This document shows, piece by piece, positions 38,874-42,417 of a stretch of DNA of 64,000 nt. The position numbers and the translations under genes are program-made. This stretch comes from Chloroflexota bacterium. Its GTDB lineage: Bacteria > Chloroflexota > UBA11872. Positions within the stretch are counted from its first letter, which is position 1, and each line of letters begins with the position of its first letter. The notes under the pieces are model-generated. The model saw only the letters and a program-made list of their open reading frames with translations, was not told where the DNA came from and did not search any database. Location of the stretch: positions 124,001-188,000 of the forward strand of contig JAJECS010000024.1 of NCBI GenBank assembly GCA_022821905.1, written 5' to 3'.

Positions 38874-40142
38874 ATGAGAATCACGGGCGTCGACCGCATC
38901 GCGCTCGATGTTGGGTTCACGCCGCGCACGGAGCCGCATATGCGGCGGGGGATCTTCGACTTCTCGCTGATCGAGGTCTGCCGGGTCTCCACCGATACCG
39001 GCATCGTCGGCTGGGGCGAATCCCGCGCCATGCACAACTGGGACCGCGACATGGACGCCGTGGATGCCGGCGTCATCGGTCGCAACCCGGCAGAGCTGCT
39101 CTGGCGCGACGAGCTTGGCAGCGGATTGCAGCAGGCCATGTTCGACCTCACCGGCAAGTCGCTCGGCGTGCCCGCGCACCGGCTCATCGGCCGCCAGGCG
39201 CGCGCCTGGGTCCCGCTGGCGTGGTGGTGCTACGACATGCCGCCCGAGGACTGGGCCGCCGAGGCCGAGGACGCCGTGGCCGCGGGCTACACGGCCTTCA
39301 AGCTCAAGCCGCGGCCCTGGTTCGACCTGATGGCGCAGATGGAGGCGATCAGCGCCGCCACACCGGACCACGCCACTTTCGACCTCGACTTCAACGGCTT
39401 TCTGCTCGACGCCGGATTCGCGCAGCAGGTCCTGGCCGGGCTCGAGGCGTTTCCCAAGATCCACATGTTCGAGACGCCCATTCCCCAGCGCGACGTTGCC
39501 GGCAACGCGGCGTTGCGGGCGAAATCCCGTCGCGCAATCGCGCTGCACTTCGAAGAGCCGGACTTCCTTACGGCGACGCAGGAGCACGTCTGCGACGGCT
39601 TTGCGGGGCACGGTGAAGGCGTCGCCTCGACGCTGCACTACGCGGCCCTGGCGCACGCGGCCAATCTGCCGTTCTTCGTTCAACTGGTGGGCACGGGCAT
39701 CACCACCGCCTTTGCCTCCCACATGTCCGCCGCGCTGCCCGCCGCCCGCTGGCCCGCCGTGACCGCATTGAACGTCTACTCCGACGATCTGGTCACCGAG
39801 CCGCTCGATATCCAACGCGGATACGTCCGCGTGCCCGAGGCGCCGGGCCTGGGCATCGAGATCGACGAGCAGGCCCTGGAGAGATTTCGTCGCGATACCA
39901 CGGGGCCGAAGCCGCTGCCGCGCGCAATCTATTCGGTTCGCTGGCCCGACGGCCGCACTGCCGAGTACGTATCGGTCCGGGCCTACGAACGCGATTTCAT
40001 GACCGGCAACCAGCCCTCGTTCGAGCGCGGCGTCACCCTGACCACCCGCGAGGACGACGGCAGCGTCGAGTTCGACAACCGCCATCGCGCGGTGTCGTCG
40101 GCCGGGATCCCGCACCGCTCGGATCCGATTCCCTCGTTCTAG
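38874..40142 (+). CDS. Divergent enolase-superfamily protein with C-terminal extension
   Basis: 422 aa from ATG 38874; reading further upstream would translate the 53-bp repeat. KxK motif in FKLKPRPWFD, first metal ligand in FDLDFNGFL and second in MFETPIPQ are recognisable, and a third may be in LHFEEPDF. The usual His general base (PHN-type motif) at the barrel's end is not found; the region reads VQLVGTGITTAFASHMSA. About 75 extra residues follow the fold (IYSVRWPDGRTAEYVSVRAY onward). It may catalyse a different reaction from its neighbours, or none. Confidence 0.75.
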   Translation: MRITGVDRIALDVGFTPRTEPHMRRGIFDFSLIEVCRVSTDTGIVGWGESRAMHNWDRDMDAVDAGVIGRNPAELLWRDELGSGLQQAMFDLTGKSLGVPAHRLIGRQARAWVPLAWWCYDMPPEDWAAEAEDAVAAGYTAFKLKPRPWFDLMAQMEAISAATPDHATFDLDFNGFLLDAGFAQQVLAGLEAFPKIHMFETPIPQRDVAGNAALRAKSRRAIALHFEEPDFLTATQEHVCDGFAGHGEGVASTLHYAALAHAANLPFFVQLVGTGITTAFASHMSAALPAARWPAVTALNVYSDDLVTEPLDIQRGYVRVPEAPGLGIEIDEQALERFRRDTTGPKPLPRAIYSVRWPDGRTAEYVSVRAYERDFMTGNQPSFERGVTLTTREDDGSVEFDNRHRAVSSAGIPHRSDPIPSF

Positions 40143-40221
40143 GTGGGAGCGAGTCAGCACTTGCCCCTGGCTTGATCAGGAAAAACGGAGACATCCCCGA
40201 CTTCGCGGCGCCCCGACCCGA

Positions 40222-40227
40222 TAGAAT
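40222..40227 (+). promoter_or_regulatory. -10-like TAGAAT box, unit 1
   Basis: TAGAAT located 46 bases before ATG 40268 and 58 before ATG 40280. No clear -35. Confidence 0.4.
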
Positions 40228-40267
40228 CCCGTCAGCGTCTGCGCCCCGACGCGTGGACCCACAACAG

Positions 40268-40468
40268 ATGAGGTTCTCGATGCGCATCATTCTCGCCGTG
40301 CTGCGCCTGGCTACCTGGCCCGTGCGCCGCATTTGGCGCTTGTTCGTACCGGCGCCCAAGCAGCACACCATGGGGAAGCACTTGCATCGACGTCAAAGCC
40401 AACGGACGGGCAACTTTGTAAGCAGGACCCACTCTGAGGGCGGGGCCCGGCGGGTCTTCTGGCCGTAA
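40268..40468 (+). CDS. Small basic protein, tandem family copy 1
   Basis: 66 aa from ATG 40268; the internal ATG at 40280 gives 62 aa and matches copy 2's spacing from its TAGAAT box. It begins MRFSMRIILAVLRLATWPVR, then RRIWRLFVPAPKQ, with a hydrophobic-then-Arg-rich N-terminus, a PxPxQ box and a hydrophilic tail (HLHRRQSQRTGNF). The pattern LAVxRx(5)VxRxxRx(3)PxPxQ is shared with copy 2 and largely with copy 3. No database family recognised. Possibly a membrane-surface amphipathic helix; function unknown. Confidence 0.55.
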   Translation: MRFSMRIILAVLRLATWPVRRIWRLFVPAPKQHTMGKHLHRRQSQRTGNFVSRTHSEGGARRVFWP

Positions 40469-40514
40469 CCGTTCGGACTGGCCCACCGGCGCAACCGAGC
40501 TCGTGATGATCGCC

Positions 40515-40520
40515 TAGAAT
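40515..40520 (+). promoter_or_regulatory. -10-like TAGAAT box, unit 2
   Basis: GCCTAGAATCA context, 58 bases before GTG 40573. No convincing -35. Confidence 0.4.
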
Positions 40521-40572
40521 CACACAAGGTTTCGAGTCCAAGTATGCAGGCGAACGTCGATTGGAGCCTTTC

Positions 40573-40755
40573 GTGAGCGTCATCCTCGCGGTGCCCCGCT
40601 TTCTCGCTCGGCTCGTGACTCGCTTCAGGCGCTGGGTCACACCTACCCCCGAGCAGCGCATGCACTCGGCGCAGCAACGCCGGCAGGCGCGGCAACAGGC
40701 GCACGACGCCCTGCGCAAGCATTACCCCCGCAGCGGCGGGCCGGGCTGGCGCTAG
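40573..40755 (+). CDS. Small basic protein, tandem family copy 2
   Basis: 60 aa from GTG 40573, placed six bases after GGAG; a TTG four codons earlier is less well supported. The N-terminus reads MSVILAVPRFLARLVTRFRR, then WVTPTPEQ, then a Gln/Arg-rich helix (RRQARQQAHDALRKHYPRSG). An amphipathic, strongly basic helix is likely. Paralogue of copies 1, 3 and 4. Confidence 0.6.
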   Translation: MSVILAVPRFLARLVTRFRRWVTPTPEQRMHSAQQRRQARQQAHDALRKHYPRSGGPGWR

Positions 40756-40777
40756 CCGCTCGCCTTGATCCGGCGGC

Positions 40778-40806
40778 TTACGGGCCGCCTGACCATCACC
40801 TAGAAT
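40778..40806 (+). promoter_or_regulatory. Predicted promoter of unit 3, with the -35 inside a hairpin loop
   Basis: TTACGG (40778-40783), 17 bases, TAGAAT (40801-40806). TTACGG is exactly the loop of the hairpin GGCGGC (40772-40777) / GCCGCC (40784-40789), which follows the copy 2 stop and could also end its transcript. Confidence 0.5.
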
Positions 40807-40852
40807 CAGACCCGCATGCGTACGTGCAGCTGCACGGCGATAGGAGATTTTC

Positions 40853-41026
40853 ATGGGCGCACTACTCGCGATTTGGCGTTTTACCAAGCGACTCGTTTAT
40901 CGCACCTGGCTGTGGCTCACCCCTTCCCCAGAGCAGGAAGCTCTCGCGAAGCAAATCCGCAATGACCAGAGTCAAGAGACGCGCACCCGCGTAGATATGG
41001 CTGGCCGCTCGCGTCTTCGGTTCTAG
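40853..41026 (+). CDS. Small basic protein, tandem family copy 3
   Basis: 57 aa from ATG 40853, six bases after AGGAG. It reads MGALLAIWRFTKRLVYRTWL, then WLTPSPEQEALAKQIRNDQS, with a charged tail. Alignment with copy 2: LLA/ILA, RLV, W-TP-PEQ at the same spacing. It is the best-formed unit, with promoter, leader, ribosome site and gene all recognisable. The leader contains the 12-bp palindrome GTGCAGCTGCAC. Function unknown. Confidence 0.65.
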   Translation: MGALLAIWRFTKRLVYRTWLWLTPSPEQEALAKQIRNDQSQETRTRVDMAGRSRLRF

Positions 41027-41048
41027 CCGCTCAGCTTTACTCGGCCGC

Positions 41049-41078
41049 TCACAGGCCGCCGTCACCATCGCCTAGAGT
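41049..41078 (+). promoter_or_regulatory. Degenerate promoter of unit 4
   Basis: TCACAG, 18 bases, TAGAGT (41073-41078). Same arrangement as unit 3, including the GCCGCC...CACCATC(A/G)CC spacer, with one base changed in the -10. Confidence 0.35.
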
Positions 41079-41157
41079 CAACGCAGAATCCGTACGCGCA
41101 ACTGCACGAGGCTAAGGCCGTTTCAGGCGGGCGCTACTCGCACCACCCCGCGCCTTG

Positions 41158-41319
41158 ATGCGCCTCGCTCAACGGTTCTGGCTGTGTGTCACGCCTGCGC
41201 CGGCGGAAGAGATTCTCTCGCAGCAGGTGCGCAGAGACTTGCGCAATCAGCAGAGTCACGAGACGCGCGCCTGGCATGTGCACCCAGGTCGACGAAATCA
41301 CCCGGGCTTCCAACGCTAG
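41158..41319 (+). pseudogene. Small basic protein, tandem family copy 4, probably start-less
   Basis: In the position of copy 3's ATG (52 bases after the -10 box) this copy has AGG at 41125. The frame stays open through ALLAPPRALMRLAQRFWLCV, TPAPAEEILSQQVRRDLRNQ and QSHETRAW to a stop at 41319, clearly homologous to copy 3. The only usable starts are TTG 41155 or ATG 41158, which would drop the hydrophobic N-terminus and give about 53 aa. Either a decaying copy or a shortened variant. Confidence 0.55.
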
Positions 41320-41382
41320 CTATCCGCCAGTATCCAAGGATTCACAACAGGCTGCGGCCACGAACAGCGCGTTCAGCATCGC

Positions 41383-42417
41383 CTACCCGAACGGCCGCCG
41401 CTCGTTCCGGTCTAGCGGCAGCGAGATCGGCCTGCCGCCCTCTTCGACCGAGAGGTAGGCCGCCTGCATGATCTCCACCGCCCGCAGGCCGTCCTCGCCG
41501 GTCAGCACCGGCGGCTCGTCGCGCAGCACCCAGCCGGCGAAGCTGTCCCACTCGGTGTCGAACGCCTCCTCGAAGCCGTAGCCCTCGAAGAAGGTCGTCT
41601 GCATCGGGCCGTCGTGCGTGGCGTAGTGCACCGCCACCTGCCGCGGGTCGTAGGCGATGCCGCCGTGCTCGCAGGCGATCTGGTAGCTGAACGACGTGCG
41701 GTACGTCGCCATGGGAAATGCCGTTGTGACCTGGATCGAGCCCAGCGCGCCGCTGCGAAACCGCAGGTTCACCGCAATCGCGTCGTCGTAGTCCGTCACG
41801 TCGGGAAACAGCTTGGGACCGACCATCGCCGAGACCGTGTCGACCTCGCCCAGGTAGTAGCGGATGGTGTCGACGTCGTGCGTGCCGGCCCAATACAGCA
41901 GCCCGCCGTTGGCCGCCTTCCGGGACCAGAACCCGTGGATCCGCCGCCCGAAGTAGCCGTGCACGTTTATCGAAAGCGGCTGTCCAAACTCTCCGGTGTC
42001 GAGCAGGCGCTTGATCTCGGCGTGCGCGCCGCGGAACCGTCGCTTGTGACCGATCATGAGCTTCACGCCGTGACGATCGGCGGCCTCGATCATGTCGTGG
42101 CACTCGGCCACGGTGATCGCCATGGTCTTCTCGCAGAAGATGTGGCGCCCGGCCGCCGCCGCGTCCACCACGATGTCGCGGTGCGTGTTGTGCGGCGTGG
42201 CGACGGCGACGGCGTCGCAGTCGCACTCCGCCAGCAGGTCGCCGTGGTCGCCCCAACAGGGCGTGCCGTACTCCTCGCCGCGCCGCTGAGCGGCTTCGGC
42301 GTTCACGTCGGCAACGCCGACCAGCTCCAGCTCGGGCCGCCGCGCGACAATCTTGGCCACCTCGCCGCCGAAGTTCCCGGCGCCGATCAAGCCGACGCGC
42401 ACAACCGATTGCGCCAT
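41383..42417 (-). CDS. Gfo/Idh/MocA-family NAD(P)-dependent oxidoreductase
   Basis: 344 aa from ATG 42415-42417. GLIGAGNFGGEVAKIVARRP (Rossmann), CDAVAVATPHNTHRDIV, IFCEKTMAITVAECHDMIEA (EKT instead of the usual EKP), and HKRRFRGAHAEIKRLLDTGE plus GGLLYWAGTHDVDTIRYYLG for the active site (Lys/His/Asp). Last gene of a four-gene minus-strand operon headed by the dehydratase at 45577. Likely oxidises a sugar, inositol or their acids. Confidence 0.88.
   Translation of the reverse strand: MAQSVVRVGLIGAGNFGGEVAKIVARRPELELVGVADVNAEAAQRRGEEYGTPCWGDHGDLLAECDCDAVAVATPHNTHRDIVVDAAAAGRHIFCEKTMAITVAECHDMIEAADRHGVKLMIGHKRRFRGAHAEIKRLLDTGEFGQPLSINVHGYFGRRIHGFWSRKAANGGLLYWAGTHDVDTIRYYLGEVDTVSAMVGPKLFPDVTDYDDAIAVNLRFRSGALGSIQVTTAFPMATYRTSFSYQIACEHGGIAYDPRQVAVHYATHDGPMQTTFFEGYGFEEAFDTEWDSFAGWVLRDEPPVLTGEDGLRAVEIMQAAYLSVEEGGRPISLPLDRNERRPFG

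Follow-up and report, generated by a model that had tools for sequence, protein, structure and literature searches.

The Ldr loci of E. coli are arranged as direct repeats, with a separate promoter and a leader for each small-peptide gene. Multi-peptide leaderless bacteriocins and phenol-soluble modulins are likewise small amphipathic cationic peptides encoded in tandem, although they are shorter than the proteins considered here and are accompanied by transport or immunity genes or by dedicated export. The Ldr peptides have 35 residues, are transmembrane and are paired with an antisense RNA, and membrane type I toxins are hydrophobic, with a transmembrane helix (PMC8309996). DUF1127 proteins occur as several paralogs, and protein-protein contact is a possible mode of action for them (PMC12501420). 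The locus analysed in this study lies in a stretch of 64,000 nucleotides from a sponge-associated Chloroflexota bacterium (hereafter the window, meaning the whole stretch) and is a tandem array of four units in direct orientation, each about 270-290 bp long, whose encoded proteins are mutually alignable, related, basic and about 57-64 residues long.

The array is located on the plus strand between an enolase-superfamily gene (Pfam MR_MLE_C), which ends at 40142, and a convergent Gfo/Idh/MocA gene on the minus strand (41383-42417); these neighbours are sugar-acid type enzymes and suggest no partner for the small proteins. Each unit is headed by a -10-like box, which is TAGAAT in copy 1 (40222..40227, with GACCCGATAGAATC conserved at the first position in six of six species), in copy 2 (40515..40520, identical in the related species G003) and in copy 3 (40801..40806, kept in G003 and G005), and the damaged form TAGAGT in copy 4 (41073..41078; TCGAAT in the broken G003 ortholog and TAAAAT in the intact one of G005). 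The first-pass annotation had given a spacing of 272-293 bases between boxes, and we measured 293, 286 and 272. The leaders, measured from the end of the box, had about 46-52 nt, and those of copies 3 and 4 were both 46 nt, equal as proposed. The description of the array as tandem paralogs that encode small basic proteins and have separate promoters held as far as can be judged from the sequence, with the correction that it contains three genes and one pseudogene instead of four working genes.

Copy 1 (40280..40468, plus strand; 62 codons, ATG start, TAA stop) had been assigned a start at 40268, which we moved to the ATG at 40280 because every relative aligns there and a GAGG lies six bases upstream. 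It is 97% identical in G003, which leaves too little change to give an informative dN/dS. The segment 40021-40680, which covers copy 1 together with much of copy 2, shared 93-98% identity with G003, against about 80% in the 3' portion of the enolase-like gene before it. This segment may represent a recent exchange or recombination tract between the window species and G003, so that the near identity of copy 1 in the two species cannot be taken as evidence of strong selection. Copy 2 (40573..40755, plus strand; 60 codons, GTG start) is of a type found in all six species, being 88% identical to its G003 ortholog and sharing 62-63% identity along its whole length with the single copies of G001, G002 and G004 and with copy a of G005. 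Copy 3 (40853..41026, plus strand; 57 codons, ATG start) showed 84% identity to its ortholog in G003 and 79-81% in G005. As had been noticed, a GGAG ends exactly six bases 5' of both the GTG at 40573 and the ATG at 40853. Between copies 2 and 3 there is a GC stem, GGCGGC-TTACGG-GCCGCC (40773..40790, plus strand), whose loop had been read as the -35 element of copy 3 within a hairpin that could also terminate copy 2. The stem is kept in G003; the two roles were not supported, since the loop differs in that species (TCACGG) and no run of T follows.

Substitutions between species argue that the units are genes. Orthologs of copies 2 and 3 gave dN/dS values of 0.15-0.53 between species (0.24-0.39 for copy 3), and differences at codon positions 1, 2 and 3 over four species pairs of these copies numbered 23, 13 and 49 (p = 5e-6). 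Two of the four pairs were significant individually in this third-position test, and copy 3 alone was not (p 0.37). Length differences among family members were whole codons, in frame. The comparison proposed earlier to separate reading-frame constraint from a dN/dS near 1 thus came out in favour of constraint, and on these sequence data the intact copies are genuine protein-coding genes. Identity across the genus is 94-96% for the flanking MocA protein and, for the type 2 protein, only 62-63% between the window and the single-copy species, implying that the family evolves fast, though constrained. Sequence comparison describes a genuine orphan family of rapidly evolving, genus-restricted, small and strongly basic proteins.

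A protein search found the family in six of six species compared within the genus, always at one site between the enolase-superfamily and the convergent Gfo/Idh/MocA genes, in agreement with the earlier expectation of homologous arrays in related genomes. Three species have one copy (G001, G002 and G004, with a single copy of type 2), one has three (G005, types 2, 3 and 4, all with ATG) and two have four (G003 and the window species). The named records are Chloroflexota metagenome-assembled genomes, with isolates COS3_bin_17, RHO3_bin_74 and jk18x1bzbins.9, where we take COS and RHO to stand for the sponges Coscinoderma and Rhopaloeides. In species with one copy, the stop of the small gene directly adjoins that of the convergent MocA gene, with no spacer (CGCTAGCTAGCC; L029:2670-2675, likewise in L027 and L028). 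A dispersed palindromic repeat of the TGGATTCC...GGAATGACG type, in some cases with GGGGCGGTTCGCGAACCGCCC, precedes the small gene in G001, G002, G004 and G005, at loci that are intergenic and just upstream of it (L027, L028, L029 and L026); it was not seen at this position in the window or in G003.

Outside the genus, the family was not found in 13 genomes of the sister genus, and the rest of the class together with 400 Chloroflexota genomes gave no convincing match. The phylum yielded one weak match (G166, E 1e-4 per genome) with a stop inside, and the weak class-level matches at L040, L041 and L012 were set aside as chance, each lying in a different frame within a larger gene. No family match came from viral contigs, phages or plasmids, in searches that in part used one member each as query. 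Nothing exceeded the threshold in Pfam, NCBIfam, PADLOC, PHROGs or the PDB sequences; a Pfam-A scan of all 13 members returned sub-threshold unrelated matches only and did not match the DUF1127 profile, and the single Rfam match (E 3.6) was far below threshold. The earlier statement that no known family fits was thus borne out in profile libraries, the PDB and Chloroflexota genomes.

Copy 4 (41125..41319, plus strand) carries AGG where the start is expected, as the first-pass annotation had reported; its description as a shortened gene was not sustained. In addition to the AGG and the TAGAGT box, a stop lies a few codons upstream and the ribosome site reads AAGGC, and the internal ATG at 41158 has no ribosome site. 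The ortholog in G003 has GTA as start, an in-frame TAG and the box TCGAAT, and that of G005 is intact with an ATG start. Judged from these sequences, copy 4 is a pseudogene in both the window species and G003, via different lesions. Between these two species it is also less conserved than any other coding part of the array (77%, versus 89-97% for the other copies). In the protein tree, whose branches are long and whose support is modest, types 3 and 4 grouped together, as did types 1 and 2, and a tree of the two flanking genes placed G005 among the single-copy species (support 85-89). On this placement, the simplest reading of the sequences would be that types 2, 3 and 4 were already present before the genus split and have since disappeared on more than one occasion, the alternative being transfer between species.

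TAGAAT, or TAAAAT in one case, precedes 12 of 12 intact copies in the genus, and the damaged box was found only at the two dead copies (TAGAGT and TCGAAT). Apart from the four unit boxes, the interval 40101-41450 (1350 bp) has no -10-like hexamer on the plus strand, and none was found on its minus strand. No sigma-70 -35/-10 pair with 16-18 nt spacing was found in 40100-41450, and a query with the first box (TGACCCGATAGAATC) gave no genome-wide set of sites. When tRNA genes were located with ARAGORN on 445 kb of the same genome, TAGAAT appeared 14-19 nt upstream of tRNA-His and of two tRNA-Arg genes, and some other tRNA genes were preceded by similar hexamers. Because TAGAAT occupies the -10 position of these tRNA genes, the array boxes are probably ordinary -10 elements. 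The two tRNA-Arg genes (G000:C4:19609 and G000:C4:23883; L093 and L094) share a TAGAATCGTCACGCCGCCAA leader, and these leaders are a useful yardstick for the -10 element of the lineage. Hairpins in the array leaders were considered as a conserved RNA element and rejected, with folding z-scores from +1.1 to -2.8 and no common structure.

The intact copies have a net charge of about +6 to +14 and a pI of 10.3-12. In the type 2 copies the N-terminal hydrophobic moment exceeded that of shuffled sequences (p 0.003-0.009); for copies 1 and 3 it was not significant (p 0.11-0.26), which makes membrane docking uncertain for those copies. By Kyte-Doolittle analysis the maximum over 19 residues was 0.27-0.98 and no hydrophobic transmembrane segment was found in the family proteins; several Arg or Lys residues lie inside the N-terminal segment, too many Arg for these segments to be transmembrane. 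AlphaFold2 predicted two helices, 6-22 and 24-50, in a weak model (pLDDT 62, pTM 0.26).

The best explanation, to which we give an even chance, would be a genus-restricted family of separate -10-driven units encoding proteins held at the inner membrane face by an amphipathic Arg-rich helix. The family keeps to one chromosomal site, where duplication, loss and decay have left one to four tandem copies; each copy would form a separate transcription unit, recognised by the main sigma factor via the TAGAAT -10 element. The N-terminal Arg-rich amphipathic helix (residues about 3-20) would place the protein on the inner face of the cytoplasmic membrane, and the polar Arg/Gln-rich C-terminal helix could bind a partner, either protein or RNA, with copy number tuning the dose or letting copies specialise. 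A membrane-surface protein with a polar partner-binding tail is, with modest confidence, the best fit.

The main rival, possible and yet doubtful, is that the copies are short Arg-rich regulators resembling DUF1127, which would bind RNA or a sensor kinase without docking to the membrane. Size and Arg content are similar, and the DUF1127 proteins are also multi-paralog and can act by protein-protein contact (PMC12501420); against this, no Pfam model, that of DUF1127 included, scored above its cut-off. By analogy with multi-peptide bacteriocins, the array might instead encode secreted cationic antimicrobial or leaderless-bacteriocin peptides, and the cationic amphipathic N-terminus, the tandem paralogs and the fast evolution beside MocA proteins as conserved as those described above would all agree with it. 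We consider this unlikely, as the genes directly beside the array encode sugar-acid type enzymes and no exporter or immunity protein, and the long polar C-terminal half is conserved as well. Very unlikely is a type I toxin-antitoxin array like Ldr, of tandem toxic peptides silenced by antisense RNA, a kinship that the first-pass annotation had suggested from the layout. In its favour are tandem repeats roughly 280 bp long with a promoter-like box and a leader in every unit, small peptides whose C-terminus is basic, and copy turnover and decay; membership was nevertheless not supported, because the minus strand of 40101-41450 offers no -10-like hexamer for an antisense RNA, which might still have a promoter of another type, and the peptides have no transmembrane helix, to which are added their length of 57-64 residues, the high pI, the N-terminal Arg/Lys, and the lack of Pfam matches and of Rfam matches above threshold. 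Finally, chance open reading frames in GC-rich repeated DNA from which no protein is made would be extremely improbable and appear already largely refuted by the sequences, since the frame-constrained substitutions, the in-frame indels and the start, ribosome site and stop conserved across six species outweigh a G+C content of 66%, at which long open frames are common, and the breakage of two of three copy 4 orthologs.

The small-protein family described here matches nothing in Pfam, NCBIfam, PHROGs or PADLOC and is backed by a comparison of six species, beyond an open frame alone. Its natural series of one copy, three copies, and three plus a dead copy is a compact setting in which to follow how orphan genes of uncultured symbionts duplicate, diverge and decay. 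The family is new and its general kind is ordinary, as lineage-restricted small proteins are common and these are of that sort, arranged in tandem. The fuller proposal, rather unlikely to hold in all its parts, is that it constitutes a new kind of small membrane-docking adaptor that arose in one sponge-symbiont genus, whose dose or specificity would be set by the gain, divergence and death of tandem copies with separate promoters.

Among the known systems, the leaderless bacteriocins and phenol-soluble modulins resemble the array in being small, amphipathic, cationic and tandem, and differ in that the array proteins are longer and adjoin no transport, immunity or export genes. DUF1127 (YjiS and relatives) is matched by no Pfam profile hit here, and the array, unlike it, stands in tandem at one site and occurs in one genus only; the two have in common short, Arg-rich proteins, often with several paralogs per genome. 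The Ldr/Rdl loci of E. coli (Fst/Ldr family) differ from the array in having an antisense RNA and transmembrane peptides, whereas the array shows neither antisense box nor transmembrane segment, and they resemble it in layout: direct repeats, each with a small-peptide gene, its own promoter-like box and a leader.
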